Origin: Anaeromyces robustus
Taxonomy: Eukaryota > Neocallimastigomycota > Neocallimastigomycetes > Neocallimastigales > Neocallimastigaceae
DNA: 64,000 nt
Direction of reading: 5' to 3'
Assembly (NCBI GenBank): GCA_002104895.1
Contig: MCFG01000331.1
Span: 16,017 to 80,016 of the forward strand
Below are positions 26,816 through 64,000 of this stretch, piece after piece. Made by a program: the position numbers and the translations under genes. Positions within the stretch are counted from its first letter, which is position 1, and the number at the start of each line of letters is the position of its first letter. Under the pieces are notes generated by a model that was given only the letters and a program-made list of their open reading frames with translations, had not been told where the DNA came from and searched no databases.

Positions 26816-26852
<37 letters not shown>

Positions 26853-36253: not shown

Positions 36254-36314
36254 TGTGATTATATATATTTAATATTGAAAAAAATAAAAAAGAAAAATGA
36301 AGTGCAAAACTAAA

Positions 36315-39395: not shown

Positions 39396-39446
39396 ATGAT
39401 AAAATATGTAAATGAATTAAAAATAAATTTAGAATTAAAAAAATAA
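39396..39446 (+). promoter_or_regulatory. Upstream ORF whose stop overlaps the LRR start (TAATG)
   Basis: A 16-codon frame starting ATG at 39396 ends with TAA at 39444-39446, sharing its last A with the ATG of the LRR gene at 39446. If transcribed together, ribosomes would end the uORF exactly at the main start. Such overlap can lower or couple translation. It could also be chance in AT-rich DNA. Confidence 0.35.
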
Positions 39447-40895
39447 TGAGTAATTGTGAAGAAGATATTAATGATAAAAAACCCTTAAAACCATCTTCAT
39501 ATGAAAGTTATAAAGTTTGCTTAAAAACTATTAATGATATCAACCAATTAAATCAAGCAATTTATAATTATCAAGAAGAATTAGTCAATGTAACCTATTT
39601 AACCATTGAAATTCCTGAATTAGAAAGATTTCCAGAAGAATTATTTCCTTTATTAAAAAATATAAAAGTATTTAGAAGTTTCAGTAAAAATATACAATTT
39701 CTTCCAAATGATTTATGGGAGCTAAAAAATTTAAAGGTTTTACAAATTTGTAATTGTAAAATTCAAAATATTTCAGAAGATATTAAAAAATTAAAAAATT
39801 TAGATGAATTAATAATTAATCATTGTAGAGTGGAAAGTATTCCCGAAAATATAAAATATTTGAAATTTTTAACCTATTTAAATCTTTCTAATACTCGTAT
39901 AACCTTACTTCCAAAAGAAATTGGATATTTAGAAAATTTAACTACTATATTTATTTGGTTTACGAAATTAGAAAAACTTCCGAAAGAAATAGGTAAATTA
40001 ACTAATTTAGAAAAAATAGACATTTGTCTGAACGAAATAAAAGAAATTCCAAAAGAAATTGGTAATTTAAAAAAATTAAAAGAATTTAATCTTTATAAAA
40101 ATAAAGTAAAAGTTATTCCAAAAGAAATTGGTGGATTAATTTCTTTAGAAATATTAAATATAGTTTCAAATGAATTTGAATACGTTCCTGAAGAAATTAA
40201 ATATCTTAAAAATTTAAAAGTTTTACAAATGCAATTAAATGACAATTTAGTCTATCTTCCTACTCGTTCAATAGGTGAGTTGGAAAATTTAAGATTTTTA
40301 AGGGTTGATGAAAAATTTTCCATTGAGAAAGTTTTAAAAAACGATTTTGAGTCTGAAGATGATTTTTATGATTATTATAATTTAAATCCATATATATATC
40401 ATGAAAAGTTGTATCGAGATTTTAAAAAATTAAATTTAAGTCATCGTCATTTAGAAGAATTACCTCTTGATATAGTAAATATGCGAAATTTAAGAGAAAT
40501 AGATCTTCATAGTAATAATTTAACTTATTTAACACCTCTAATATCAAATTTAAATCATGTAAGAATATTATATTTATAGTTACCTTTCTGAAAAAATATT
40601 TAAAATGCCCAAAATAAGAGAAATTGTTGTGGAAGGATATTTAATACCTAGTTCTATTTTAAAGGATTTTTCATTTAATTTTAAATATTTATATATAAAT
40701 AAAGATTATATAATTTTTCTACTTTGGAAAAGAAAAAATAAAACACCAATAAGTACAAATGAATTAAATATTATGCATGTCCGTAGTAGTCATAAAATAT
40801 ATAGGATTTCATTTGTCAATAAAAAACTAATTCCTTATAAAAAAAGTGAAAATCAAAGCAAATATATTGATTATAAAAATTTAAAAGGAAAATAA
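39446..40895 (+). pseudogene. Leucine-rich repeat protein with a frameshift
   Basis: The first frame (39446-40579, 377 aa) is an intracellular-type LRR protein with no signal peptide. A 45-residue head (PSSYESYKVCLKTIND) is followed by about 12 repeats of roughly 23 residues, with recurring LPKEIG, IPKEIG and VPEEI at fixed spacing (for example LEKLPKEIGKLTNLEKIDI). This is the plant/fungal Ras-group LRR type used for protein binding. It stops at TAG after HVRILYL. A second frame that is open from just before that stop reads YSYLSEKIFK, then MPKIREIVVEGYLIP and on to 40895, and continues the fold naturally. One indel near 40570-40580 therefore splits what was a single gene. No intron can repair it: the only GT...AG pair there is 21 nt, does not change frame and runs into a stop. 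Confidence 0.8.
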
Positions 40896-40995
40896 TATTT
40901 ATTTTGTATGAGGATAATCATCACTATATATGTTTTTTTGAAAAAAGTTATTTTTTAATAAAATTGGATTTTTTATTAATAGTTTTTATATATAT

Positions 40996-41058
<63 letters not shown>

Positions 41059-41189
41059 AAATAAAATAATATTTATTTCTTTTTTTTTCTTTTTCTTTTT
41101 TTTTTTTTTTTATTTTCTATTTTATTTTTTTTTTATTTATAAATTGATTTTATTATTCTGAATAAAATTTTTATAAAAAAAAAGTATAA
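40896..41189. other. Spacer with a long poly-A run
   Basis: Includes about 54 consecutive A residues near 41000-41053, then T-rich sequence. No gene. Confidence 0.8.
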
Positions 41190-41454
41190 TTGAATATGAA
41201 TTTGCTTACCCTTTTTGTAATTTTGGTATCCGTTAATTATAATTTGGCGAAAGAACCAAAGATATTTTGTCGTTATAATTATCAAGGCATTTCAAAAATT
41301 TATGATCCAGCGTATTATGATAATCAAGGTCAGATAGTTTATGCACAAACTATTAAAGAATATGCCAAAGTATTAGGGCCAACATGGTATGGAGTTTCAT
41401 GGTGTGATAATAATACTATGGTTGAATAATATTGGATTATATAATTTTTTGTAA
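41190..41454 (+). pseudogene. Secreted DPxY/CGNNT-module protein, copy 1 (truncated)
   Basis: A 79-residue frame (41190-41429) starts with a signal peptide (MNMNLLTLFVILVSVNYNLA). The mature module follows: IFCRYNYQGISKIYDPAYY, IKEYAKVLGPTWYGVSWC, DNNTMV. It aligns closely with copy 2 (45233) and more loosely with copy 3 (51207). The frame ends at GAA TAA after MV. Relative to copy 2 an extra G follows ATGGTT; without it the frame would read through 11 more codons to TAA at 41454. Everything that follows the module in the other copies is missing. Family not recognised. Confidence 0.7.
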
Positions 41455-41944
41455 TAATAAAAAAAAATAAAAAAAAAAAAAAAAAGATAATTAAAAAATG
41501 TTATTTAGTATTTTATTAGTTTATTAATTAATTAATAAACCTTTATATAAATCTATTAGAAAATATAATAAATATTATTATATTAAGAATTATAATATAT
41601 TATTTAGATATATCTAACCCCTAAGTATAAATTTTTTATATTCTAAATAATCTTTTATTATTATTAATAAATATTTATTGTTTTTTATATATATTTAAAA
41701 GCAATAAATATATAAAAAAAAATTAAAATTATAAAATATGAAATGAAAAAGAAAAAGAAAATTTAAATAGATAAAAATTAAAAAAAATAAAAAAAAAAAT
41801 CTATTAAAATAGAATAAATAATTAAAGTATGAAATAAAAATAGATAAAAATAAAAAATAATAAATAAAATAAAATAAAATAAAATAAAATAAAATAAAAT
41901 AAAATAAAATAAAATAAAATAAAATAAAATAAAATTAAATAAAA
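41430..41944. other. Spacer with (AAAAT)n array
   Basis: AT-only spacer; an AAAAT pentanucleotide array runs from about 41872 to 41975, into the end of the next frame. Confidence 0.8.
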
Positions 41945-42960
41945 TTAAATAAAATAAAATAAAATAAAATAAAATAGAAAAGAAGATTCCAATTTCTTAT
42001 TAAGATAATCGCGTTGAACAATATAACTATTAGTAATCTTTTTTATATCATCATCTTTAAGTGATTTATTTTGTTGATTTGAATCAATAATTTTATTTAA
42101 CGAATCAATTAAGCCCGTAAAAAATTGTACATTATTATTATAAGCATTTTTATATATATCTACTAAATTATATTGTAATATATCATTAACCCAATGATTT
42201 GTATATTCAAAGTCTCTAATAATCTTTTGTCCTTGACTTTTTTCATTATATTGATTTAAATTTCTTAAATATGTATGGAGTTCATCTAATTGTTTCGGCA
42301 AATTTGTATTTTTTTGATCATCGGACATTACCTCTATTATATAGTCTAATACATCAATATTTTTATTATCATTATCATTTTAACCTAATATGTACTTCCC
42401 ATTACCATTTATATTAACCCTATTAAGATCTACAACTCCTGAATTCTCATATTGATAACCTTCTACTGTATATCCTGAAATATATAATCCTAAATTAATA
42501 TTGTCAACTTGAGGAATATATTTTTTATTATTAAAACGCGCATCCCTAAATACTACTCCTGTTTTTATATTTAATTCTATTAAATCACTTTCAATATATT
42601 CTAAAGATTCAGTGTTGTAGACATATCTTTTATTAAAAAAATATTTATAGATTTCATATTCTTTTTTTCATTTTCAAATGAACAAAAATGTACATTCTTT
42701 ATGTTCATATTCTTAATAAATTCTTTACGATTTAACAATAAATTCAATTTACTTTTAACATTTTCATCAATTTTTGGTTCATTTTTGTTATTGTTTAATT
42801 TTGTAATAAGATCAGAATCATTTGTAACAGGAATACCTTTATGAAAAAAAATTTCATATTTAATTTCCGCAATTGTGTAACCAAAAAAAAAAAAATGGAG
42901 AAAATAGATAATAGATATAGATATTTTATTGAAAATTTTAAATAATAAATTAAAAATCAT
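41945..42960 (-). pseudogene. Secreted protein of unknown family, broken by a frameshift and a stop
   Basis: Read on the minus strand from ATG at 42960, the N-terminus is hydrophobic (IYFLHFFFFGYTIA), a likely signal peptide. About 90 residues of mixed sequence follow, to a stop at 42601. A one-base shift near 42625 opens RYVYNTESLEYIESDLIEL, then LGLYISGYTVEGYQYENSG and VVDLNRVNINGNGKYILG. An in-frame TAA at 42380-42382 comes next, and the same frame then resumes as a helical C-terminal part (MSDDQKNTNLPKQLDEL to 41945). The pieces are consistent with one former secreted protein of about 330 residues. I do not recognise the family. The C-terminal frame ends in an AAAAT array, so the original end is probably lost. 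Confidence 0.6.
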
Positions 42961-43273
42961 TTTAAAATAATAACATAAATTTAAGTTTGTTAAATGAATT
43001 TTATATATTTATTTATTTTTATAAATTGATTAATTATTATACAACATACAAAAAAATATATATACATGAATATAGATTAAATTAAATGCAATTAATAATA
43101 AATAATAAATAATAATAATTATTATATAATATTATAAATATTTTAATAAATATATATATTTAAAGAAATATATAAAAGAATTGTTAGTTGATTTGAAATA
43201 TTATAATATATATTTTAATTTTATCGTATTTATAAAATTATTATTAAAAATAATTATTATTTATAGTTAATCT
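42961..43273. other. Divergent spacer
   Basis: AT-only sequence between two divergently oriented broken genes. It would contain both promoters; nothing specific seen. Confidence 0.7.
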
Positions 43274-44786
43274 ATGTTGTCAATTAAGGAAGAAAATACA
43301 AAATTATTTTTCAAGGAATTAAATAACAATCCATGTAATATTGAATTACTATGTTCTCTTTCAAAAAAAGGAATATTTTTATTTGATATTTTATATAAAT
43401 ATGAAAATATAAAATATCATGAATGTGTGGTTGATTTGAGTTTAGAAAATAATCAATATTTTATGATATATAATGATAGACAATATAAAAGATTTATTGA
43501 ATTAATGAAATTATATAAGATTAAATCAAAAAAAAAATTGTTTTGCTATAGATTTATATTTTAAATTAGCAATACCTAATGAATTTTTTATATCAAAACT
43601 CATAAATGATGAAGATTTTTTAATTAATTTATATGATACAGAATTCACGGATTCAATATTTTATTTTTTGTTAAAATATAATTATATTCCATCTAGTATT
43701 TTTCAAATGTTTAACCGTGATTATTGTTACGAAAGTACTATTACTTATATTATTTTTATTGATATGATTTATTTAAAAAATGAACAATATGATTTAACAA
43801 AAATGAATAAATTCATAAATTCAATAGTATTTTTCAATTTAATAGAGTCGGATGTTGGTAGAAATATTGAAGGTTTAGAATTTATAATAAATAATATTAT
43901 TGATAAAATTGGAGTTAATTATTGCTACACTGAAATTCGTATTCATTATAACTATCCACTTGAAATATTAAATAAATATTCCAATAAATTATATAAACCA
44001 AATATTTTATATTTTAAACATCCAAATAAATATATTGAAAGTGTTATTAATAATAAATACGGAGATAGAGGTTTAAAGCATATACATACTTCTTTAAAAT
44101 ACAATGGAATTATCCCATCTATATATATAGATGAGTTGTGTCAACCTTTTGATATATATAAGAAACCTGAAACTTATAGTAATTATGAATTATTAAATGA
44201 TAATATATATAAAGAAAAAGATTGTAATCACTTAACATTATATGAGAATTCCGAATTATGGATGGGAAATAAAGATTTATTTAACTTAAACTTTAATATG
44301 AAAAAATATGTTTTTGACGACGACGACGACGATATATATGAATATTCTTATGAAATGTTACAAAATCTCAGAGATACATTCATAGAAAAATATTTAAATG
44401 ATATTGAATTATTAAAGATATTAAAAGACTATAATTATATTATTGATAAATATAACAATGATAATTTACTACAAAGTAATTATTTTTATTATATTTCAGT
44501 TAAATGTTGTATATTAGGATCGTTAATTTATAATAATCATAATAAATTTATTATTTACATATTAACTCAAATGATAAATCATTATGAACAGATTAACATG
44601 TATTATAAACCTCAAGAAAATAAAATATATTTTTACGATGGTGGAGGAAGAAGTGAATATTGGCCATATTCTTTAAGTGAAATGATATGGGAAACAGTTT
44701 GGGTAATGATAAATAAAAAATCACAAGATATATTTCGGTTTGATCCAAATACTAGAAATTTAGAAAGTATGTTAGAGTCTGATTAA
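43274..44786 (+). pseudogene. Unknown protein, split by an indel in a poly-A run
   Basis: Frame 1 (43274-43564, 96 aa) starts MLSIKEENTKLFFKELNNN. It ends just after a run of nine As (near 43528) that encodes the last Lys residues. The +1/-1 frame opens at that run (NCFAIDLYFKLAIPNEFFIS) and joins the second frame, which is open to 44786 (including LLKYNYIPSSIFQMFNRDY, MINHYEQINMYYKP and a last segment rich in aromatics, SEYWPYSLSEMIWETVWVM). An indel in the A-run is the obvious cause. The protein is all-helical-looking, with no signal peptide and no motif I recognise. It is loosely like the divergent N-terminal part of the ankyrin gene at 50403. A (GAC)5 run encodes six Asp at 44316-44333. 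Confidence 0.6.
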
Positions 44787-44870
44787 TATTAAAATTTTAA
44801 AGGTAATATTTTTTAATATTATATAAATTAAAAATTTCTGATAAATATTATATATAATAATAATAATAAC

Positions 44871-44922
<52 letters not shown>

Positions 44923-45232
44923 TGTAGAATATTTGAATATTATATATATATTTTAAAAATAATAATAATAAATTGTAGAATATTTGAATATTATATATAT
45001 TTTTTAAAAATAATAATAGTAAATTGTAGAATATTTGAATATTATATATATTTTTTAAACATAATAATATATAAAAATAAAAATTATATTTATTATTATG
45101 AAATGAATTTATTGTAATTATAAAATGATTTTTTTGTAGAAATTTTTTTATATTTAATAAAAATTAAATTATTTAAATATTAGTTTTATTATATTTAACA
45201 TATTATAATAAATATTACAATTTAGATAATAG
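44787..45232. other. Spacer holding an AAT array and a minisatellite
   Basis: Contains (AAT)n at about 44855-44921 and the 52-bp repeat listed below. No gene. Confidence 0.8.
44915..45066. repeat. Three-copy minisatellite, unit about 52 bp
   Basis: Three tandem copies share the core TTGTAGAATATTTGAATATT, each followed by a TA run and T/A tract. Copies differ by one substitution (AATAGTAAA) and small length changes. Confidence 0.95.
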
Positions 45233-46492
45233 ATGAAGTTAATTATTTATTCGATTTATATATTCTTTGCCAATTATATTTTAGCCAAAGAATTAAAGAA
45301 AGAGTCTAGAGTATTTTGCCGTTACAATTATAAAGGGATAACAGAAGTTTATGATCCAGCCTATTTTAATGAAAAGGGTAAAATCGTATTGCTAAAACAA
45401 TTGAAGAATATGCTAGGGTATTAGGTCCTACTTGGCATGGTATGTCTTGGTGTGGTAATAATACAATGGTTAATAGTATTGGTATTTATTATGATATATC
45501 TAAAATTCAAAATAAATTAAGAAAAAGAACTGATAAAAATACAAATAAAGAAACACCTCTAGAACCAAATAATACCGATCAATTGACAATCCTTTTTCGA
45601 GAGGAGATAATACAATCGACGATTATAAAAATCGAACAGAAGTTTATATTGATAGAATTTATGATAAATTAAAAAATGGTAATAAAAAGTATATTCCATT
45701 AGTAAGTCAAAGTCCTGAATTTAATCCTTATCATAAATCCTTAATTAGGGGCATTGATCGTGCACCAAATATTAGATATGCTACTGGAATAAATTTTTCA
45801 GAATCAATTAATTCTATTATTAGTAGTATTCCAGAAGGTGTAACTAAATGTGCATCAGTAAATAACTGTGCAGGATGTACTGTTGTTTGTAATGTTCTTA
45901 TTTCCGCTACAAATGAAAAACAATATTCTATTACTAATTCCAGTGGAAATATTTCAACACATACAATAGGTGATGTTAATAATAATACAGACACTTTAAC
46001 TGATGAAATATCTAATACTATTGAAGTAGCATCCACATTAACTCACACTGATAGTATTACACAATCAGATACTGATTCAAAATTATTGATAATAATAATA
46101 GAGTCATTTGGAGTAATTGGTTTGTAAGAAAAAATAATTACCATAGAAGATATGTAGAACCATTAGTTTATTCAATATCATCATGTAATGAAGAACTTAG
46201 ATTACCATATATATTTAATATGTATAGTTATGAACAACCAAACCATGATAATATACAAGTTGATCCATATTTTAATAATTTATTGCCCAGAGAAAAGTTA
46301 AGATTTGAACATAATGATGAAGCGTATTTGAAATTAACTGATACGGAATTGATTTGGAATAATTTTGTTAAAAATGAAACAATTGCTACTTGTTCAAAAA
46401 TTAAAGAATTAAAATTATTAGATAATGGTTTATTTTTATATTGTGAAGATAAAACTGAAACTATAGCTTCATTGAATAATAATAATAAATAA
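45233..46492 (+). pseudogene. Secreted DPxY/CGNNT-module protein, copy 2 (multiple frameshifts)
   Basis: A signal peptide (MKLIIYSIYIFFANYILA) and VFCRYNYKGITEVYDPAYF start the gene. A missing base near 45388 shifts frame; the continuation reads IEEYARVLGPTWHGMSWCGN then NNTMVNSIGIYYDISK. Near 45590 a second shift leads into IPLVSQSPEFNPYHKSLIRG, then VTKCASVNNCAGCTVVCNVL and a Ser/Thr/Asp-rich stretch. A third shift near 46090 leads to the last frame (ELRLPYIFNMYSYEQPN, NETIATCSKIKELKLL) ending 46492. The middle aligns with copy 3 (NPYHPALIKI, FEDCASITREPDSVISCTV), which confirms the paralogy. Original length would be about 415 residues. The C-terminal 120 residues are not present in the other two copies. 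Extracellular role unknown. Confidence 0.75.
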
Positions 46493-47117
46493 AAAAAAAT
46501 AAAAACAAAAATAAAATAATAAATAAAAATAAAAATATTATAATGTAATAAAAACAAAATATAATAAAAAAATAAAATAAAAATAAAATAAAAATAAAAA
46601 CAAAATAGAATAAAATAAATAATGAGGTAAAAAAAAATAATTAAAAATATAAAAGTAATATAAAATAAAATAGAATAAATTCTATTACGTTTTATATATA
46701 TATATATAGTTAAAAAGTAAGATATCTAAATAAATTAGATATTATTTAAAATTATATATCGTATTTTTATTTTTTTAATTTTTTTTTTTTTTTTTAAACT
46801 AGATAAATATTTTTTTTGTTTAAATTTATTAATTTAAATTGTATTCATATGAATTTATAAAGTAATAAATAAGATGTTTTATTTTTATTTTTATTTTTTG
46901 ACTTGTTATTATGCTGAAGACATAGTAGTACTATAAAACTAGTTTTTATATATATATTGTTTTTTTGTTTTTTATATTAGTAAAAATATTATTTATAAAA
47001 AAATAATAATAAAGTTTTTTTATAAATAATCTAATTAACAATTATAATATTAAATATTGAATATAAAATTATTTTTTTAAAAAAAAAAAATAAAAAACTT
47101 CAAACAAATATATTAAA
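46493..47117. other. Spacer, AT-rich
   Basis: AAAAT-like and TA repeats; no gene seen. Confidence 0.75.
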
Positions 47118-48009
47118 ATGTTTTTTAAATTATTTATCATCTTTAGCGTTTTAAACAAAATTATCTCTTTACCTGGAGGTTCAAATAGCAATAATAATAA
47201 TGCGGCTATTTGGATATACAATGAATATCTAGATAGTTGTTTATATGGTACAAAATTTTCAGTGGAGACATTAATTTATGAAACTTGTGATAATAGAAAA
47301 AATTAATAAATGGTATATTGATGAAAATGATTATGGCATCATTTTAAGATCTGCCATTAATCCTGATATATGTATATCAGTTATTACCAATGAAAACGTA
47401 TTAGATAACTGTGGCGGAAATAATATTATGTATTATAATAAAGGTTCCAAATTTATCAACAGTGATGATGGTATGTGCTTAGGCGTTAATGATGATGAGG
47501 ATTACTTAACATTAAATAATTGTAATAGAAATAACAAAAAAATATTATGGGAAATATCAGAGAGTAAACCTACTGTTACAACAACAACTACTACTACTAC
47601 TACAATAAATTCCACTCCAACTTCTAAACCAGTATAGATATATAATGAATATGCTGATAAATGTTTGTATGGTCCCGAATATGATGATGAAATTCCAACT
47701 TATGAAAATTGTGATAATAGTTAAATCTAAATGGGAAATTCCTGTTTCAGGAGATCTTTTCTTTAAATCGGTAGAATATGGTTGGTGTATTGCTAATACT
47801 GTACCAAGTACAGGTGGTCTTAATATGAGTTTTTGTAAAAGTGAAGATATTCTTATGAGAGATAGTTTCTCTTTAAGTACTATAAGACCTCCATATGATG
47901 TGAATTTATGTATGGGTATCTTAATTCAGGTAGTGCTACTGAAACTCGTTTAAATATGAATAAATGTAAGGTTAGTTATGGAACTTTCTATTTCATTATT
48001 ACTAAATAA
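47118..48009 (+). pseudogene. Secreted protein with two beta-trefoil-like (ricin-B-lectin-like) repeats, frameshifted
   Basis: A signal peptide (MFFKLFIIFSVLNKIISL) is followed by two homologous domains separated by a Thr-rich linker. Domain 1 has IYNEYLDSCLYG, ETCDN, NKWYIDEND, then GMCLGVNDDEDYLTLNNCN and KILWEI. Domain 2 has IYNEYADKCLYG, ENCDN, SKWEIPVSG, GWCIANTVPS and LNMSFC. The CLG...L..C...W pattern resembles the QxW carbohydrate-binding trefoil fold (inference, not certain). The gene is broken in at least four places: a frameshift after CDN in domain 1, an in-frame TAG at 47635, a frameshift after CDN in domain 2, and another near 47915. The last codons overlap the decayed tail of the convergent ankyrin gene. 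Confidence 0.65.
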
Positions 48010-50403
48010 AATATTACTATTTGGGTTATTATTTACTTTATTTTTATATAAATTAGAAATATTACTTTCCATACTTTTAGATAATCTTAATCTTTGTTCA
48101 ACTGTTAAATCAATATTATTATAATCAGAATATTCTTTTATTTTATCAAATATATCCTGTTTTAATAATTCATTAACATTTTTAATCTGAGTTTTTTATC
48201 ATTGCTAAGACTATTAAAATTTGAAGTTCCTCTTATTTATTCACATTTATTTAAATAATCAAGAATAATATTATTATTACTATAACTATTTGCACCAGTA
48301 AATAATTGAATAAAAGAAGTAGCATGATTATTTAAATTATTATTATTATTATCAAAAATAGAAAGAGGTTTATAAAAATATACTTCTTTTGAAGCAAATT
48401 TCTCGTCTACTTTATATTTTATATTACCTTCACTTTTTGTAGTTTTAATTACTGTAATAGGATGAGCAGTAGTTAATTTAATACCATCATTTATTAATAG
48501 ATGATATCTTTCAATACCATTAATTATACTTTTGAAAATACTAAAATTGATATAATTTTCATTGTTATGTTTTGTAAAATAATTTTTGCATATATCATCA
48601 TTTCTACATTCATTGAAAATTTTTTCTAAATCTTTATTATCAATAACATCTAGAGGTTCATTAATATAACTTGTTTCACCAATATGGTCTAAATTTCTAT
48701 AATTTGTTTCTCCAGTGATTTTCGGAAAATCGAGAGAACTATCCTTCATATATTTTATAATTTCATTAATGTAATGATTAGCTCCAACTTTTTTATCTTT
48801 TGAATAGATATATAATTTTTTTATATAATTATCTGAAAATAATGAAGGGGACTCATTTAAATCTCCATTTGAATTTAATAATTCCGCAATTATATCTTTA
48901 TTTCTTAAATTTAAGCGAATATTTTCAATCATCATATCAGCATCATTATTATCAATAATACTATCTACTCCTAATTCATTAATGATATTTTTCATTAATG
49001 GAAATAATTCTTCCTTAAAAAAACTCTCTGCTTCATCTTTACTAAGTCTTCTTAATTCCTTTACTTATAACAAATTCTGTACCATCAATATTACCTATGT
49101 ATCTTTCATGTCCTTTTAACTTTGTTTTAGCAGTGGTTATATCTAAAAAATCTCCATTAAATTTATTATAATTCATAGTATAATCTCCGTTTGCATTATT
49201 TTTTTTTGATACTGAAAATCGATAAATATCTTTTTCAATATTATTGCTGTTATTATCAGTATATGTAACAATAAAATGATATTTATCATCGCTCTCTTTA
49301 ATTAACGAATATTCTGGATTTCCATATTTAAATAAATTATAGCATTCCGATTTTCTGTAACATAACCTTGATATTGTTCTAAATTCATCAAGATATTTTA
49401 AATCACTATTACTAGTAATTTCTGTATCAGTATTATCAATTGGTCTAAAGTTAGATTTATATTTTATAGAATTTCTAAATTTTTCATCATTTTCTTTATA
49501 TTTATCATCATTATAACCATACTTATAAAATGAAAGTAAATCTAGTTCATTATTATCATTAACTAATCTTAAGCCGAAATGGTTAAGTGCCGTATTTCCA
49601 TCTTTATCTTTTATAAAAACATATGCTCCTTTTTTTATAAAATAATATACAGTATGTGTATTATTTAAATGACATAATTCCATTAATGGAGTTTTTCCAT
49701 TTTTATTTCTTTCATTAATATCAAACCCTATACTAAGTAAAAAATCCAATACATTTAATTCAATATTTTTATAAATACCTAAATATTTAGAATAAATATA
49801 CAGAGCTGTATTACCTTCATTATCTTTTATAAATGGATTTGCACCATTCCTATATAATATATATGGTACACCATGATTACAATTACTAATTTTACAATTT
49901 AAAAAAAAAGCAGTTTCACCCTTATTATTTTTAATATTTAAATCTGCTCCATAATTAATTAATAATTTCATTGCTTTCATACTTACATAAAAAGTAGCAG
50001 TATGTAAAGATGTAACTGTTTCATCTATTTTGTAGCATACATATTCACATTTTGTAAAATAATAATTATATTTTTCAGAAATTTTATTTTCTATTTGGAA
50101 ATTAATATATAAATTTAATTTATCTTCTTTAGATATTATTTTTTTAAAATTTTCTTTCGAAATTGCAATTTTATTTTTATAATATAAAAGTAATTTTATA
50201 ATAATATTATTATCATATTTAAATAAAACATTAAATAAATTCTTTAAAATATCATTATGATTATATTTAACTAATATACATATTAATAATCTTATTTGAT
50301 ATAAAGAAATTATTTCATTGTCGTTATAAATTTTAAATTTTTTAAGAAGATTAATTATTAATTTATTATTGTAATTAGTATTATATTGATTAACAAAATT
50401 CAT
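47997..50403 (-). pseudogene. Ankyrin-repeat protein, frameshifted and with a decayed 3' end
   Basis: The main frame (50403-49042, 453 aa) has a helical N-terminus. Ankyrin repeats then run from about residue 130 to 290 (TSLHTATFYVSMKAMKLLIN, YGADLNIKNNKGETAFF, GNTALYIYSKYLG, FDINERNKNGKTPLMELC, KDGNTALNHFG). A non-ankyrin domain follows (FRTISRLCYRKSECYNLF, YHFIVTYTDNN, ERYIGNIDGTEFVISKG). One base near 49045 breaks the frame. The next frame reads LSKDEAESFFKEELFPLMK and continues to a TAA at 48237. Beyond that stop, further in-frame and shifted fragments (TQIKNVNELLKQDIFDKIKE, LTVEQRLRLSKSMESN) persist to about 48000. The second domain repeats a pattern of the first (KSECYNLF / NDDICKNYF; TAKTKLKG / IKLTTAHP), suggesting an internal duplication. 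There is no signal peptide, so it is probably a cytosolic adaptor type. Confidence 0.75.
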
Positions 50404-50888
50404 TCCTTATAATAAATCAAAAAGCAATAAATTTAACTAAATCTTTACTTATATTTATAAAATAATGGAATTAATAAATCATTTTATTTAAACAATTTTT
50501 TCTTAATTTAATAGTGTCTGTTTATATAAAATACCATAATTTTTTTTTATTTATATTTATAAAAATAAATAATATTTATTTATAAATTATCAGAAATATA
50601 AATACTAAAATATATATCATAGATATATTTTAACGAAATATAATTAAATATCAAACCACAATAGTATAATTAAATATTTATTATTATAGGAACAATTGTT
50701 AAATAAATATTAAATTTAAAAAACTTTTTTATTAAAACGAGTTTTTACTTATATATATATATATATATAAATATTCATTCATTCATTCATTTATTTATTT
50801 ATTTATTTATATATTTATTTATTTTTACATTTATATATTTATATATTTATATATTTAATTAATTAATTAATTAATTAATTAATTAATT

Positions 50889-50933
<45 letters not shown>

Positions 50934-51206
50934 TTAAATACATTAAAAAATTATAATTTTTTTAAACATATTATATTGTGAACAATGTGCCTTTTAATTA
51001 AATTTACATCCACTTTTAAAATTTTATATAAAACATTAAAATAAAATATATATAATAAGGAAGTACAATAATATTTTTATTAAAAAATTTTAATGAACAT
51101 TGATATTAAAGTAATTAAATATTTTAAAAATATTTAAAAGATTTTAAATTGATTTTTATTCGATTTTTTAAAAAAAAAAATTAAAGTTATTTTAATAAAA
51201 TTTAAT
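50404..51206. other. Divergent spacer with ATTC/TTTA/AATT arrays
   Basis: Short ATTC, TTTA and AATT tetranucleotide arrays occupy about 50774-50935. No gene seen. Confidence 0.75.
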
Positions 51207-52364
51207 ATGTTATTATTAAAATATTTGTTATTTATTACTAGCATCACAGCTAGTAGTAGTAAAACAGTTTCAAATACCACAGCTAGTAATAGTAAAACAG
51301 TTTCAAATGTTGAAACTAAAAATTCAAAAATATCAAAGAATGATATACATAGTGATTCACATTTGGAAACAACAAATGTTACAAAAAATAGTATGATCAA
51401 AATATTTGATCCATACTATGTTGATTCTTGTAATAATACAATCTATTTTGATAACATTGAAGATTATGCTAGATATATCGGTCCGGATTGGTTCGGTGTA
51501 GGTTATTGTGGTAATAATACAGTAGTTAATAATGTTGGAAGTTATTTCAAAGTTTCTGAAAATAAAAAAAGTAAAAGAGAAAAGGTGGAGATTAAAAATA
51601 TAAATCAAAAAGAATATGATATATATGAAAACGAAGATGATAAAAATGAAAATATGGAAGATAATACGTATGACGATGAAGATGAATTGTCTATTTACAG
51701 AGCACGTACTAAAGAAGATTATAAAAAAGAAATTAAAAAACTATATGAAAATTTTATAGAAAATGGTATGAAAAGTATTTCACTAACGAGTAAAAATCCT
51801 GCGTATAATCCGTATCATCCTGCATTAATTAAAATTAAAGATATAAATGAAAATGAAATTAATTATATTATTACAATGGGAATGCCTTATGAAGTAGATA
51901 AATCATTATATGAGGAATTAATTAAAGATGGACAATCTAAATTTGAAGATTGTGCAAGCATTACTCGTGAACCTGATTCCGTTATTTCATGTACTGTTGC
52001 TTATACAGACGATATTCAAAATACTATTAGTATATCTAATAATGATGGAAAATCGTATCATAAATCGTATAGAAAAGTTTATAGTAAAGGTGATGCGACT
52101 ACAAAAGAAATTAGTGAATCACTTCAATTAGCTAATGCTCTTTCTTATAGTAAATCTACTCATGAAAGTGATACAAGTGGGTATACGGAATCTCTTGAAA
52201 AAGTACATAATGTCATTGATTCCGAAAGTTTAGCTAGAACCCAGAGTAAAGAAAATACTCATATGGAATCTACAGAACATACTACTTCTCATATGAGTGA
52301 AGAACATGCTCATACACTTACTAATAGTAAAGAAATAACTGATGAAACCAACTTCAATAAGTAA
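51207..52364 (+). CDS. Secreted DPxY/CGNNT-module protein, copy 3, probably 3'-truncated
   Basis: A 385-residue open frame. The signal peptide is at about 1-16 (LLLKYLLFITSITA). Two copies of a (S/T)ASxSKTVSN repeat and a Ser/Thr/Asn spacer follow. The module is IKIFDPYYVDSC, IEDYARYIGPDWFGVGYCGN, NTVVNNVGSYFKV. An acidic linker and a middle domain (YRARTKEDYKKEIKKLYENF, NPAYNPYHPALIKI, FEDCASITREPDSVISCTVA) lead to a Ser/Thr/His-rich end (ESTEHTTSHMSEEHAHTL). Compared with copy 2 it lacks the last 120 residues. The stop lies where the sequence texture changes abruptly, so the 3' end was probably lost there. It is the only member of the three without an internal break. It was probably exported to the cell surface or medium; function unknown. 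Confidence 0.7.
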   Translation: MLLLKYLLFITSITASSSKTVSNTTASNSKTVSNVETKNSKISKNDIHSDSHLETTNVTKNSMIKIFDPYYVDSCNNTIYFDNIEDYARYIGPDWFGVGYCGNNTVVNNVGSYFKVSENKKSKREKVEIKNINQKEYDIYENEDDKNENMEDNTYDDEDELSIYRARTKEDYKKEIKKLYENFIENGMKSISLTSKNPAYNPYHPALIKIKDINENEINYIITMGMPYEVDKSLYEELIKDGQSKFEDCASITREPDSVISCTVAYTDDIQNTISISNNDGKSYHKSYRKVYSKGDATTKEISESLQLANALSYSKSTHESDTSGYTESLEKVHNVIDSESLARTQSKENTHMESTEHTTSHMSEEHAHTLTNSKEITDETNFNK

Positions 52365-54350
52365 AACTAAGACTGCAGCCCTTCAAGTAACCTATATATA
52401 AATTTACTTACAATATATATTAATTTTGATAATTTATATATTTTAAAAACCATATATTCATTATATTAATTTTTTTAACTTGGAGAAAAATTCAATGGTT
52501 TGGAACATTTACTCAATATTAAATTTTTTTATTTATTTTCAATCTATCTTTTAATGAATATTTTAAATGAATCAATTAAATTGTAAAGATAATAACTAAT
52601 AATATGTGTTTATTTTATTAAATAACAATGTAACACCAAAGTTAATAGTAATATAACATATAACCTATATGTAAAATATATAGCTATATATATATTATAT
52701 ATACATATCATATTATATATGTATATATATTACATGTTATACTTTTTTTATTACAATATATGTTTTTATATAAAATTCAGATAAATGATGAAAAAAAAAA
52801 AAAGATGTAACATGCATATTAATTTGTATATATGTTATCACATATGCTATTTATACAAAATATATATATCAAAATATATATTTTATATGATAAATAAATT
52901 AAACAAATAAATAAATAGATGCTATCATAATATTTATAATACAATGTATGGTATATAATTATATATACATTCAATTAATAAAAAATAATCTAAGTATATA
53001 TATTAAATATAATATATATAACAATATAAGTTTTTAATATATTAAATATAAACATTTAAATAAATAAATCAATAGAGGTAACATTTATATTAACATAAAT
53101 GTATAAATGTTCCAATATAATAAATATATTTAATATATAGACTCTAAATATCTATATAGATTATATTGATATATATAATTATATACACAATATTTAATAT
53201 ATATCATATATTTTCTGTATAAAAACTCTATAAATTTACATATATATATGTATATATATGTAAATTTACTTACAATATATATAAATTTACTTACAATATA
53301 TATAAATTTACTTACAATATATATTTATACATATATTCTTTGTATAAAAACTCTATAAATATGTATATATATAATATCTGAAGTGAAATGTACTATATAT
53401 TAATTTAATAAAAAAGAGGCAACATTTATGGTAATATTTATGTTAAATTAATATTCTACCACGTAAGTTCAATATATACGTAATATATCTATATATATAC
53501 AGTATTTAATATATATGATGCTATATATCCATATATATTGTATTTAATATAGAAGAATATTTAATATATATAATATTCTGAATAAAGTATATGGATATTC
53601 ACCCATATGCTACGCTATATACTATATATAGTGTAATATATATAAAGAGATAGATAAACATATATACTGAATACATTATATATATAATAAAGTATTTATA
53701 AATCATATATATTATATATAGGATATGTATACCAATATTTATATTTAAATGAGTCTTAAATTTAAAATGAATTATGAAATGAATAAATAAATGTGACATA
53801 GATGTTGATATGGAAGCTAAAATGAATGTTACAACAATAATGTGATATAAACAAAGTAGATATTAATATATCAATGTATATATGCCAATTTGTATATTAA
53901 AGTATATACATCTATACAGTATTTAACATATATAATATATTATGATTATATATAATTAAACTCTATATTCATTATAAATAGTATATGTGAAGTAATGTAT
54001 GTTTTTATATCCAAAAATGAACTATAAATTATGATGTAACATTCATATATGTTACAGAAGATCATATATAAATGTACTAAATATATAATATATATATATA
54101 TATATATATAAAGATAAAAAATATAATGGTTTAACATAAATAATTTTTCATTATAAATAAGTATAAAAGTATAAAAGTATGTATTCTTATATATCAATTA
54201 TGATATATAATATTAAACCTATGCATGCATTTGTATATACATTTTAAAATATATTATTAATAATGTCATAATTATTAATAATAACTTATATAGATCAATC
54301 TAATATAAGAAATAAATCATATAATTATATATTATATTTTTTTAATTTTT
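52365..54350. repeat. Non-coding patch with diverged interspersed repeats
   Basis: The texture differs from other spacers here: few homopolymers, many ATAC/GTAT steps. Related segments with a GTAACAT(T/G)(C/T)AT...ATGTTA core, often preceded by an AAATAAATAAAT run, occur near 52793, 53080, 53412, 53790 and 54033. A 21-mer TAAATTTACTTACAATATAT(A) occurs once at 52399 and three times in tandem at 53261-53322. No coding frame is supported. It may be a decayed satellite or a mobile-element corpse. Confidence 0.6.
53261..53322. repeat. Three-copy 21-bp tandem repeat
   Basis: The exact unit TAAATTTACTTACAATATAT plus A is repeated at 53261, 53282 and 53303, with an isolated fourth copy 860 bp upstream at 52399. 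Confidence 0.95.
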
Positions 54351-58784: not shown

Positions 58785-61700
58785 ATGAATCATTTAACAA
58801 ATGGTCATAATCTTAATTCCAAGGAAAATTCTGAAAACCAATTGACTTTCTTAAAAGAAAGATTTAATTGTGATTTCAATGTATTAGCCGTTCCTAAAAA
58901 GGAATATTACCATAAATTTAGAGGAAATGAAAAAGTATTTAAACATCAAGAATCATTAATTATTAATGATTATTATAAAAAGGTTAAAGGGTTTGTGGAG
59001 TCTAATCATTTAAATCCTGTTTCTCTTTTACTTAGTATTTATGGTTTTGTTATGTACAAGTACACCGGTCAAGAAATTATTTATACATTATTTAGTGGAA
59101 ATGATATAGGAAGAGAAGGAAGATGTAGTGATGAAGAAGATATTACCACCATCACCACTCAACCATTTTTAATTAAATGTAATAAAAATGGTACATTAAT
59201 GGATATGTTTAATGACATTGACCATTGTTTAACCTATTATTATAAAAATCCATCGATTTTATTTTCAGAAGTATCTGAAAGTTTAAGCTTACTTAAACCC
59301 AATAATTGTTTCTTTTTTGAATCTTTTGATCAAATAAATTATGGATTTGATAAATTTTTAAAAGAAAATAAAAATTTGGATGTAGCTTTCCGGGTTATGG
59401 ATCAAAAGGATGGTTACCTTATTTCTTTGGATTATAATACAAATTTGTATGATGACACTTTAATTCAAAATATTTTAGAAAATTTCATCGAAGTCGTTAA
59501 AGCTCCCGATAATTATGGTAAAATTTTAAGTGATATTGAATATATTACTGAAAAGGAAAAGAATAAAATTCTTTATGGCTTCAATGAAAATATTTATGAT
59601 TATGGTTACGAAAAAATTTATCCCACTGAATTTAGTAAAATTGCAAGATTAAATGCTGAAAAAACAGCTCTTGTTTTCAAAGATCAAAAATTCACCTATG
59701 GTACCTTAAATGAAATGACGAATTCTTTAGGTCATTATTTAAGAGAACTTGGCGTTAAAAGAAATGAGGTCATCCCTATTATTTGTGAACGTTCGTATTA
59801 CTATGTTATTGCTTCAATTGCTAATATGAAAGCAGGAGGTGTCTTTTTATTTATTGATCCAGAATTCCCTAAAGATCGTGTCAAGTATATGGTCAATGAA
59901 GTCAGGGCTAAAATTATTTTGGAATATATTCCTCATCAACCCAAGGAAAATACATTTGATTTTGACGATTCTATTTTTGAATATTCATTAGACGGTCATG
60001 ACTACCGTCAAAATACGCATGATGTCCCCAATGTCAACACTAGCGATGATATATGTTGTATGTTCTTTACTTCCGGAACTACTGGTAAACCCAAAGGTAT
60101 TCTAATTAATCATGATAATGTAATTAATAGTACTCAATATGCTCTCACCTATCAAGGAGGAAGGGATATCTATGATAATCCAGAAGCTGTATTAGCTTTC
60201 AGTAAATTTACGTATGTGATGTGTTTCGCTGAAATATTTTTCCCGTTAATTAAACATGTTATCGTTATCTTGTGTAGCGAAGAAGAATACAATAATCCAA
60301 GTTTGTTGGGCGATATTATTTTAAAGTATAACACAGAAATTGCTGTTTGTACCAGTACTCGAATCCGAAATTATTTAAATAATGAAAAATTTAGAAAGGC
60401 CGTTGCCAATTTTAAAACTTTATTCTTTGGCGGAGAAAGTTTAACGAGAGATGTACTACAACTATTTATTCAGCATACCAATGCTAAAATTTATTATAGC
60501 TATGCCTTGACAGAAACTACGGCTTTTGGTGCTTTAAGTTATATTAGTCATGATGATATTATTAATAATAGAACGATTAGTATTGGTAAACCTGCTTGTA
60601 ACTATCAAGTCTATATTTTAGATGAAAATTATAAACCGGTTCCTGTTGGAGTAGAAGGTGAAATCTATCTTGGGGGTCGTAGTATTTGTAGTGGTTATCT
60701 TAATTTAGAAAAATTAACCAAAGAAACATTTATTGATTGCCCTTACACCCCCTATAAAAATTCTCATAAAAAATTAAAAATGTACGGTACCGGAGATCTT
60801 GGTAAATGGACTCCGGATGGCAGAGTTATTCATTTAGGTAGAAAAGATTTTCAAGTTAAAATTCGGGGTCAAAGAATTGAATTACCGGAAATTGAACAAA
60901 TTGTAAAAGAAATTAAAGGTATTGACTACACCGTTGTGATTGATAAAATGAAAAAGGGAAGTAATGAAAAATATTTAGTTGGTTATTACATTACCAAATC
61001 TGACGATATCACGGGGGAAGATATTAGAAATTATTTGAAAACAAAACTTCCAATGTATATGATTCCAAGTTATTTCATTCAAATTGATAAAGTTCCAGTG
61101 ACCGCTCATGGTAAATTGGATAGAAAATCCTTACCTGAACCAAATATTGATCGTTTATTAAGTAGTAATTATGTTGCCCCAGAAACTAAAATTGAAAAGG
61201 CCATTTGTAAAATTTATAGTCAAGCCTTTCATATTGATTTTGATAAAATTGGTAAGTATTCTACATATTTTGAAATCGGTGGAACAAGTTTAAGCGCTAT
61301 TAAGACGGTTGCTGCTATCGAAAAAGAATTAAAAATTAAATTAAATATTAAGGATATATTTACTTATCCAAAGGTTTGTGATTTGGGTAAAAGAATAGAA
61401 GAAATTCAAATGAATGGAAATGACCATTTCCATAAAGTGGAAATCATCAAAAAACAAAATAAAAAGGAATTCCCGGTAACCACTCAACAATTGGGTGTAT
61501 ATATTGATTCCATTAAAAACCCCGAAAGTACTATTTATAATATTCCAAGTTATTTCCAATTAAATCACGAAATCGATATTGAAAAGATAAAGAAAGGATT
61601 CACGCAATTATTTGAAAAGCAAGAAATTCTTAGAACGAAATATACCGAAAAGGAAATTAATAATAAAATTGAAATTTACGGGGAAGTGGATGATGAATGT

Positions 61701-62135
61701 CAACTTGAATTTGAAAATTACACCTATGATAATAAAAATGAATTTGTTAGACCGTTTGATTTATCGAAGGCACCATTAATTAGAGTAGGTTTTATTGAAA
61801 ATGAGGTATTATTAGTGGATATGCATCATATTATATCGGATGGTTCAACAATTTTAGCGCTCAAAGAACAACTCAATCATTATTATAATACGGATCAGAT
61901 TCACGAATTAGACATTCAATACAGTGATTATGCGCTTCACGTCAACGAAAAAATGAATCATGGCGATTATAAAGATCAAATTGAATTTTATAAAAATTTA
62001 TTTTCGTCCAATGACTACGAAATCCTAAATCTTCCAAAAAAGAGAAAAAATAATGAAACGGAAAAAGACGATGATTCCGATATATTCATTTTAAACAAAA
62101 ATATTGATAAATCCGCTAGTCATTTAATTAATTAA
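58785..62135 (+). CDS. Non-ribosomal peptide synthetase, first part: (C)-A1-T-C2 (N-terminal half)
   Basis: 1116 codons, no introns, composition less AT-biased than neighbours. Residues about 40-270 match only the second half of a condensation domain (no HHxxxDG; start of C5-like GNDIGREGRCSDEEDITT). A1 spans about 285-790: FFTSGTTGKPKGILINHDN, YALTETTAFG, IGKPACNYQVYILDENYKPV, YGTGDLGKW, GRKDFQVKIRGQRIELPEIE and GKLDRKSLP with the A10 Lys. The carrier domain at about 805-875 holds the phosphopantetheine Ser in FEIGGTSLSAIK. C2 starts at about 900 with MHHIISDGST (catalytic His present). A TAA at 62133-62135 interrupts C2, and the same frame continues with normal C-domain sequence after it. 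In A1 the core motif reads KFTYVMCFAEIF where A2 has KFTFDMSLSEIH, so the amino-group-binding Asp is Val. NRPS genes in anaerobic fungi are often of bacterial origin; that is background knowledge, and the lack of introns is consistent with it. Confidence 0.9.
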   Translation: MNHLTNGHNLNSKENSENQLTFLKERFNCDFNVLAVPKKEYYHKFRGNEKVFKHQESLIINDYYKKVKGFVESNHLNPVSLLLSIYGFVMYKYTGQEIIYTLFSGNDIGREGRCSDEEDITTITTQPFLIKCNKNGTLMDMFNDIDHCLTYYYKNPSILFSEVSESLSLLKPNNCFFFESFDQINYGFDKFLKENKNLDVAFRVMDQKDGYLISLDYNTNLYDDTLIQNILENFIEVVKAPDNYGKILSDIEYITEKEKNKILYGFNENIYDYGYEKIYPTEFSKIARLNAEKTALVFKDQKFTYGTLNEMTNSLGHYLRELGVKRNEVIPIICERSYYYVIASIANMKAGGVFLFIDPEFPKDRVKYMVNEVRAKIILEYIPHQPKENTFDFDDSIFEYSLDGHDYRQNTHDVPNVNTSDDICCMFFTSGTTGKPKGILINHDNVINSTQYALTYQGGRDIYDNPEAVLAFSKFTYVMCFAEIFFPLIKHVIVILCSEEEYNNPSLLGDIILKYNTEIAVCTSTRIRNYLNNEKFRKAVANFKTLFFGGESLTRDVLQLFIQHTNAKIYYSYALTETTAFGALSYISHDDIINNRTISIGKPACNYQVYILDENYKPVPVGVEGEIYLGGRSICSGYLNLEKLTKETFIDCPYTPYKNSHKKLKMYGTGDLGKWTPDGRVIHLGRKDFQVKIRGQRIELPEIEQIVKEIKGIDYTVVIDKMKKGSNEKYLVGYYITKSDDITGEDIRNYLKTKLPMYMIPSYFIQIDKVPVTAHGKLDRKSLPEPNIDRLLSSNYVAPETKIEKAICKIYSQAFHIDFDKIGKYSTYFEIGGTSLSAIKTVAAIEKELKIKLNIKDIFTYPKVCDLGKRIEEIQMNGNDHFHKVEIIKKQNKKEFPVTTQQLGVYIDSIKNPESTIYNIPSYFQLNHEIDIEKIKKGFTQLFEKQEILRTKYTEKEINNKIEIYGEVDDECQLEFENYTYDNKNEFVRPFDLSKAPLIRVGFIENEVLLVDMHHIISDGSTILALKEQLNHYYNTDQIHELDIQYSDYALHVNEKMNHGDYKDQIEFYKNLFSSNDYEILNLPKKRKNNETEKDDDSDIFILNKNIDKSASHLIN

Positions 62136-64000
62136 TACGTTAAAAGTCATAGTATTAGTAAGACAGCATTTTTCATTACTATTTATGGATATGTTTTATC
62201 AAAGTATAGTGGTCAAGATAGGATTTATAGTTCGATTATGAGTGCTAATCGTCATCATCATTCTATTGAAAATATGTTTGGTATGTTTGTGAGTACTCTT
62301 CCTATATTATTAAAATATGATCATGCGGATACCTCCTTCCTAACTACCATTAAACAAAATATGAATATGGTCATGGAAATTTATAATAATCAGGAACTCT
62401 CTTTCTCCGAATTATCAAGATTATTATATTTAAAGAATATATGAAGAATTCATTCATCTATCAACCCAAAAATAAATTAGAAGAAAAAAGTAGTACAGTA
62501 TCTTCCAATAATGGCCATGGAACAGATATTTTTGTAAGTTATGAAGATCCAAATGAATTAAACAGAAATGATCTTAACAAATTTGACTATACCATTTCTA
62601 TTAATTATAATCATGAAACGTATGATTCCAAAATTATACGTCGTATTCTTGACAGTTATGAAGTCGTCATTAGAAATATTACGAAATTTGATGATCCTCT
62701 CAAAACTATTGAATATATTCCAGAAGGCGAAAAAATTCAAATGATGGAAGAATTTAATAGAAATTCCTTTACCTATGGTTTTGATCGATTATATCATGTT
62801 GAATTTAGTAAATTGGCTAAAGAAATTCCTGATCAATGTGCTGTCGTGTTTAATGATACTATCATTACGTATCGTGAATTGGATGAAATGAGTAATTCTT
62901 TAACTTATTATTTAAGAAAACAAAATATTGGAAGAAATGCCATTGTTCCAATTATTTGTGAAAGATCCTATTATTTTATTGTTGCCTTTATTGCTGTATT
63001 GAAATCTGGTGCTGCCTATTTACAAATTGATCCAGATTTCCCAATGGAAAGAATCGAATATATGGTAAGGGAGGTTAATGCAAAATTTGTTCTTGAATTC
63101 ATTACCGATAAAGAAAATAGAAATAAGGTGCAATTCAAAAATAAGGGTATTGTGGAATATCAATTACAACATCATAAATACGATGAAAATACTTTCGGTG
63201 TTGATAATGTCAATGTCAGTGATGATTTAAGTTATGTACTATTTACTTCAGGAACTACAGGAATGCCAAAGGGAACTTTATTGACTCACAATAATTTAAT
63301 TAATTATTGTCTTTATTGTCAAAAGATTAATGGTCAGGATGATCTTTATGAAGAGAGTATTCATAGTGTTTTAGCATTTTCAAAATTCACATTTGATATG
63401 TCATTATCTGAAATCCATTATCCCTTACTAAGAGGTAATAAAATTGTCCTTTCTAACGATGAAGAATTTAATGATCCAATTGCCATTAGTAAATTAATTC
63501 AAAAACATCAAATCGATTGTTTATGGAGTGTTCCTTCAAGAATTGAAAATTATATAAATTACAAGGAATTTTTAGAATCCATTCAAACTTTGAAATTTAT
63601 GCTGCTTGGAGGTGAAAAATTGGAATATCAACTCGTAAAGAAACTTATTAATAATAACATAAAAGTTTTAAATGGTTATGGTCCAACCGAAACCACGGTT
63701 TGTTGTATTATCAAAAAGTATACCAAAGAAAATATTGAAAATGATTATAAAAATGGTTTATTTAATTCCATTGGTAAACCTTTATGTAATACCAAAGTTT
63801 ATATCTTAGATAAATATCTTAAACCAGTTCCAATTGGAGTTGAAGGTGAAATCTTTATTGGAGGTTATGGCGTTGGTAAGGGATATCTTCATCGTGAAAA
63901 TTTAACTAAAGAAAAATTCCTTGAAAATCCATTCAATTTTAATTATGATGACCATAACAACATGATGTATAGAACTGGGGATCTTGGTCAATGGACAGAA
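62136..64000 (+). pseudogene. NRPS continuation: rest of C2 (frameshifted) and A2, cut by window end
   Basis: After the stop, the original frame resumes (YVKSHSISKTAFFITIYGYV, IYSSIMSANRHHHSIENMFG, the C5-C6 part) until TGA at 62442-62444. A one-base shift near 62440 then opens a frame that runs uninterrupted from ATG 62441 to the window end. This gives the end of C2 and A2: FSKLAKEIPDQCAVVFNDTI, VLFTSGTTGMPKGTLL, KFTFDMSLSEIHYPLL, NGYGPTETTVC, IGKPLCNTKVYILDKY, MYRTGDLGQW. A2 looks canonical, with the substrate-binding Asp present. With one nonsense and one frameshift confined to C2, the synthetase as written would end inside C2; either it is dying or these are sequencing errors. Further modules may lie beyond the window. 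Confidence 0.85.

Follow-up and report, generated by a model that had tools for sequence, protein, structure and literature searches.

Birth and death of secreted-protein genes as the probable history of a broken accessory gene cluster in an apparent gut-fungus genome

When neighbouring genes of several families all read as broken, the question arises whether the genes have decayed or whether their sequence has been misread. We take up this question for a gene cluster of about 13 kb, located at 39.4-52.4 kb of a 64,000-nucleotide stretch of contig C259 (this whole stretch is called the window here and its first letter is position 1). The assembly to which it belongs has 70.2 Mb in 769 contigs. 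A GC content near 17%, a CotH gene on contig C492 (1.2e-38) and 150 matches to the fungal dockerin-type CBM_10 domain (the number scored of 683 candidates, each listed one above cut-off; 14 control genomes had none) suggest that the source is an anaerobic gut fungus, in the phylum Neocallimastigomycota, many dockerin (CBM_10) and CotH domains being diagnostic of this phylum. The comparisons set out below make it very probable that the cluster is a real birth-and-death accessory locus, which segmental duplication would build and which deletion, fusion and point lesions would erode.

The cluster holds nine gene remnants in mixed orientation (Table 1), namely a leucine-rich repeat gene (LRR), three copies of the main secreted family (F1), an F2-like gene (F2A), the gene first labelled helical (HEL), the beta-trefoil gene (RIC), copy 2 of the second secreted family (F2) and an ankyrin gene (ANK) fused to F2 copy 1. 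All the families that the first-pass annotation had listed here are present, in mixed orientation as it stated, but they amount to nine remnants and not to its seven genes, its ankyrin gene consisting of ANK, an F2 copy fused to it and a second F2 copy joined on to these. The lesions were located on three-frame stop maps and by comparing the remnants with relatives from this genome, in tblastn searches and in frame-aware alignments. About 14 were found (4 in RIC, 3 in F1 copy 2, 2 in F2A and 1 each in LRR, F1 copy 1, HEL, ANK/F2 and F1 copy 3), which bears out the earlier estimate of at least a dozen frame breaks. Their description as mostly single-base does not hold, since 6-7 are small frame changes, 2 are in-frame stops and 5 lie at larger deletions. 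Among the larger losses are 11.6 kb, as judged from a near-identical copy, and stretches of about 900, 331 and, tentatively, about 290 codons that open relatives possess. The statement that six of the seven genes are broken is right about the breakage, seen against relatives and in the stop maps, but wrong in leaving one gene intact: F1 copy 3, the longest open F1 copy here, is only the 5′ fifth of a family some of whose members are open for 1975-2268 aa, and we can call none of the remnants intact. Most likely, the cluster as read would yield few or no full-length products.

Table 1. Positions in the window of the gene remnants, the deletion junction and a neighbouring broken gene (NRPS, non-ribosomal peptide synthetase)
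Feature	Position	Strand	Description
LRR remnant	39446..40895	+	377-aa open frame, one break, then 110 aa in another frame
F1 copy 1	41195..41500	+	Signal-peptide-like start (by eye), about 75 aa of the F1 N-terminal module, rest lost
F2A	41945..43008	-	F2-like gene, apparently secreted; frame shifted once, at a 7-base run; a single in-frame stop; no other breaks (three-frame stop map)
HEL	43275..44786	+	Protein of about 500 aa; its frame shifts once, within ten consecutive A
F1 copy 2	45237..46492	+	~330 N-terminal codons joined to ~140 that lie, in the family alignment, close to the end
RIC	47119..48009	+	Ricin-type beta-trefoil gene, apparently secreted; four interruptions, 331-codon loss relative to C122
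F2 copy 2	48237..49064	-	Open for 275 aa; the deletion junction has cut off the N-terminus
Deletion junction	49050..49066		5-bp microhomology; C492 has 11.6 kb more here
ANK + F2 copy 1	49067..50403	-	In-frame fusion, near 49586, of ANK with the C-terminal half of F2 copy 1
F1 copy 3	51210..52364	+	N-terminal module, 384 codons open from ATG, then stop
NRPS	58785..64000	+	In-frame stop inside a condensation domain and one frame break

A second copy of most of the region is present in the assembly. Contig C492 covers the window from 43.3 to 51.3 kb and contig C431 from 50.1 to 64 kb, the long alignments having 98.4-99.5% identity; a further C492 match of 662 bp near 36.9 kb has 92.9%, lowered by simple-repeat length. 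This second copy is probably the other haplotype. The lesions of RIC are shared by both copies, and those of HEL, ANK/F2 and the NRPS gene differ from copy to copy. It may also be noted that C431 equals the window over about 4 kb (50096-54087), simple repeats included, and differs beyond, which may be a shared contig end or a homozygous tract.

A large deletion lies at 49.05 kb. In C492, F2 copy 1 continues there by about 270 codons, and additional N-terminal sequence is found in F2 copy 2. As both F2 genes thus extend beyond the junction in C492, the deletion is on the side of the window, where it has 5-bp microhomology and, as we read it, joined the two F2 genes out of frame. The break that had been placed in the ankyrin gene is thus confirmed as a break, but it is this junction between two F2 genes. 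A transposon inserted in C492 with a 5-bp target duplication was considered for the same site and dropped, since both F2 genes continue past it. In the extra 11.6 kb of C492 there are a methyltransferase and a PI-PLC-X gene, the latter weakly matching the beta-trefoil. The fusion of ANK (Pfam Ank_2 7e-14) with F2 is present in C492 as well, interrupted there by an 8-bp deletion; in C310 and C504 the two genes stand apart.

The RIC piece in the window matches Ricin_B_lectin only below cut-off (7.9e-5), and its open paralog on C122 matches it at 2.1e-23; by this paralog RIC is to be classed as a ricin-type beta-trefoil protein, which by itself speaks for sugar binding and gives no ground for toxicity. 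When RIC is compared with the C122 gene, the 3′ part has 95% DNA identity and the 5′ part about 82% (global alignment) or 76% (local alignment). The change in identity is significant (Fisher p 4e-10) and located at the 331-codon loss. This suggests a sequence exchange between RIC and the open paralog, which the tract would allow in either direction. Around this gene (46692-49058) the window and C492 are without any difference over 2.4 kb, with variable stretches on both sides, possibly a conversion tract.

The F1 copies provide a control within one family. Of the 33 F1 rows, the six with the longest open frames, all elsewhere in the assembly, run for 1975, 2268, 2201, 2029, 1991 and 2002 aa without a break (12,466 codons in total), against about 5 breaks in about 915 aligned codons for the three copies here; at this rate, which is a rough one, about 68 breaks would be expected in the six. 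Genes of this kind can therefore be present whole in the assembly. Copy 1 is recognized by 58 of 97 identical residues in a frame-aware alignment with the C504 protein, and also by tblastn with an F1 relative from another sequence set (L055, see below). About 900 codons are missing inside copy 2, which has two small frame breaks besides; C492 has the same breaks and, in addition, differs by 1 bp at one site and by 6 bp at another. Copy 3 is open for 403 aa from stop to stop, and its homology ends near codon 350. Beyond that, 13 codons match codons 652-664 of the C122 protein. In a test with 300 shuffles this match was attained once and its L055 counterpart 23 times, which tentatively suggests that about 290 codons were lost. 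Copy 3 is identical on C431, and C492 departs from the window sequence inside it.

For HEL, the frame change in the ten-A run is absent from C492, where a 5-bp deletion lies further on instead, and the C348 paralog is open for 498 aa. In sequence searches no match to HEL was found in Pfam or PDB (best PDB E 0.63 with the HEL profile), and a single-sequence structure model had a mean pLDDT (predicted local distance difference test score) of 33.9, useless for either confirming or refuting the helical label. An open HEL gene on C599 (L033 1-585) adjoins an AAA-ATPase_like (PF09820) frame. F2A has 87% DNA identity over 261 bp with the C348 sequence beside its HEL gene; its membership in the F2 family is weak. 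The break in the LRR gene (Pfam LRR_14 6e-31, LRR_8 2e-22), near 40.58 kb, coincides with a small deletion when the gene is compared with its C203 relative; the aa identity of the two is 79% and 91% on the two sides of the break.

From where were these genes brought together? The closest relatives of the successive blocks, that is, the closest among the loci fetched from the same assembly, lie in different loci (C203, C348, C122, C310) at about 76-95% DNA identity. LRR and F1 copy 1 are closest to C203 (87% and 81%), F2A and HEL to C348 (92%), and F1 copy 3 and ANK to C310 (90-95%); for F1 copy 2 the DNA matches are all more distant (72-74% to C504). Hence the copies of the cluster would have arisen by duplication between loci, which may have run in either direction. 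The same neighbours also recur outside the window: ANK then F2 on C504, C390, C190 and C328, HEL with F2 on C348 and C88, and F1 beside HEL (C435, C450, C320), ANK (C310, C504, C390), LRR (C203) or RIC (C122).

With C259, C492 and C431 left out, 21 pairs of neighbours no more than 15 kb apart were counted, against 1.33 expected under uniform placement. The places were entered by hand, with all 33 F1, 18 HEL, 14 F2 and 17 RIC rows, 37 of the 72 LRR rows and 15 ANK rows hand-chosen from 191 and 225 matches, generic ankyrins being left out. The 21 pairs reduce by hand to 12 when C504, C390 and C190 are merged (their ANK proteins are 97-98% alike), repeated places are merged, and C758 and C767 are dropped, where RIC is probably a domain of F1. 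In this count no LRR-HEL, LRR-F2, LRR-ANK, LRR-RIC, HEL-ANK, HEL-RIC, F2-RIC or ANK-RIC pairs were seen. Duplicated blocks explain at least part of the excess, and segmental duplication alone could be sufficient. It is rather unlikely, in our estimate, that ANK-F2, the divergent HEL-F2 and F1 beside HEL or ANK are functional pairs of a secreted protein with an intracellular partner. If they were, such pairs might act in recognition or in self/non-self competition among gut fungi, and they would be turning over fast, with differing broken or intact versions on the two haplotypes.

The history that we propose would then run as follows. Blocks of one to three genes (LRR with F1; F2A with HEL; RIC; F1 with ANK and F2) would have been spread by segmental duplication or ectopic recombination. 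Nonsense codons, small frame changes, fusions and kilobase deletions are seen in the copies here, and F1, HEL and RIC each have open relatives that persist elsewhere. Redundant secreted lectin-like proteins and their neighbours may be so weakly selected that each haplotype loses them by its own lesions.

Several observations weigh against real decay of this kind, and they are best judged beside the explanations that they favour. In a genome so rich in AT, errors of assembly or base calling could make working genes seem broken. Base-calling errors concentrate in runs, and a run of at least 6 identical bases lies within 8 bp of 3 of the 7 break sites examined, HEL among them, the other 4 being without such a run. 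These seven include a site at the RIC deletion but not that of F1 copy 1. Also, the differences between copies are often length changes of simple repeats. Single homopolymer breaks such as that of HEL, absent from C492, could indeed be base-calling errors. Yet deletions of hundreds of codons to kilobases, the 11.6-kb junction among them, and lesions identical on two contigs, as in RIC, cannot be base-calling errors, and the in-frame stops and the same-family codons that stay open in six long paralogs of the same assembly tell against error too. We therefore regard error as a quite improbable explanation of the cluster as a whole, and the earlier statement that general sequencing error is insufficient holds good, though the six F1 controls were picked for their openness. 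The open paralogs serve as the reference for HEL, F1 and RIC, and the relatives of LRR and ANK are themselves broken or partial. Even less credible is that introns or programmed frameshifting read through the breaks to give full proteins. The first-pass annotation reported introns in neighbouring genes, and HEL and F2A have only one or two breaks each in a frame that is open otherwise; but the base contexts of the break sites are unlike (the longest run within 8 bp ranges from 2 to 8), open F1 and HEL paralogs exist without breaks, and the large deletions are unbridgeable.

A more serious doubt concerns what the second copy is. C492 departs from the window at both ends, with a CotH gene on one side and unrelated sequence after window position 51280, and it is C431, not C492, that carries the window on to 64 kb. 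As its ends are not collinear with the window, C492 may be a recent segmental duplicate from elsewhere instead of an allele, in which case the decay would be real but the reading of both haplotypes as broken would be wrong. We consider this a possibility to be kept in mind, though unlikely, as the identity of about 99% is like that of C431 and the two contigs cover the window in a complementary manner. LRR, F1 copy 1 and F2A, moreover, lie outside the coverage of the second copy and have no two-copy comparison. There are also measures of selection, with wide intervals for HEL and ANK. The F1 comparisons, which are the older ones, give dN/dS (the ratio of nonsynonymous to synonymous rates) of 0.36-0.45, so the F1 family was constrained. 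HEL against C348 gives 1.64 (0.77-5.53), a nonsynonymous excess that is not significant (p 0.31), other HEL pairs give 0.58-0.71, and ANK against C310 gives 0.91 with an interval as wide as 0.39-3.10; the values for LRR against C203 and RIC against C122 were set aside, with 36 and 13 codons aligned and the frames mis-set. Between the two copies, 8 nonsynonymous differences and 1 synonymous were counted in the cluster, against 10 and 11 plus 2 stops in the NRPS gene, and the ratio of frame-shifting indels to coding substitutions is 4:9 in the cluster against 1:23 in the NRPS gene (Fisher p 0.04). All this fits a recent relaxation of selection on the cluster and is compatible with it. Finally, the cluster might be a working reservoir, its pseudogene segments being copied by gene conversion into intact paralogs so as to diversify secreted proteins. 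The step in identity within RIC speaks in favour, but it is a single tract, compatible with either direction and seen without a systematic search for more, so this reading is doubtful. The earlier suggestion of a source of variation for surface and secreted proteins accordingly goes further than this one tract can show. Birth and death of the accessory genes remains the reading that we prefer, and the description of the locus as decaying or rapidly turning over is supported by the differing lesions on two near-identical copies and by the mosaic origin of the blocks.

As for what the F1 proteins are, their N-terminus looks signal-like when read by eye, and on this F1 looks secreted; the same applies to F2 and RIC. 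The family consists of proteins of about 2000 aa at 27 merged places, 5 of them on C259, C492 and C431. In the parts scanned no Pfam match to F1, its N-terminal module included, exceeds the cut-off, the exception being the chitin-binding domains that end the C320 variant; matches below it include SseC (0.0021, C504 copy) and PilA4 (0.012, window copy 3). The C320 variant (L024 6746-8635) ends in chitin-binding (PF00187) repeats where a long C-terminal part would usually follow. Of 35 pattern matches to the F1 profile in bacterial and archaeal genomes, one was confirmed, on a 7.3-kb contig (L055 1-4183; SUTP01000084.1) in a metagenome-assembled genome of Methanosphaera stadtmanae, where an F1 relative is open for 1364 aa to the contig end. 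This is likely a mis-binned gut-fungus contig, and the F1 family is then probably present in another gut isolate. A viral origin of the cluster, or an integrated viral element, was rejected for the two families scanned, as none of 25 (F1) and none of 105 (HEL) pattern matches in viral contigs was confirmed by profile search.

Beyond the cluster, the breakage reaches the NRPS gene from 58.7 kb onward. C431 is without both window lesions in this gene, and has its own stop as well as a frame change beyond the window. The Stealth gene, named earlier as properly spliced, was confirmed as an open frame of 670 aa. Upstream of the cluster, an open reverse transcriptase/endonuclease frame of 1420 aa (32006-36268, minus strand) belongs to a non-LTR-type (non-long-terminal-repeat) element, and an open frame of 1396 aa (24804-28994, minus strand) with a long run of NIDER/NINER-like repeats has no Pfam match at E 0.01.

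As an example from an anaerobic gut fungus, the cluster lets one follow at the level of bases how secreted-protein accessory loci are built and lost, through a comparison within one assembly that is probably allelic. It points to an uncharacterised secreted family of about 2000 aa (F1) and to recurrent gene pairs open to testing. It also calls for caution, as automatic annotation of such clusters would list truncated genes as real. Judging by titles and abstract openings, none of the papers listed was concerned with pseudogenes in anaerobic gut fungi, six further papers that contain both words being judged by these alone; in PMC8106346 the word 'pseudogene' occurs once, within a reference title.

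Among known systems, the cluster is unusual in detail but ordinary in kind. At the level of single proteins, the C122 paralog of RIC is like ricin-type beta-trefoils, and the L055 F1 protein has weak matches to plant-agglutinin-like lectins in PDB (best E 0.0073), which we take to be of GNA type, making F1 weakly similar to the GNA or bulb-type lectins. At the level of the locus, birth-and-death families such as the olfactory receptor and plant nucleotide-binding leucine-rich repeat (NLR) clusters are alike in that their duplicates are both tandem and dispersed, many copies are disabled, relatives elsewhere are intact and lesions are specific to each copy; the protein families are others here, and several unrelated ones are mixed in one cluster. 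The variant surface glycoprotein (VSG) archives of trypanosomes, which feed expressed genes by segmental conversion, resemble the cluster in their pseudogene segments and in its one mosaic tract shared with an open paralog, but the expressed site, the switching and the direction of the tracts belong to VSG, and the cluster shows none of them.

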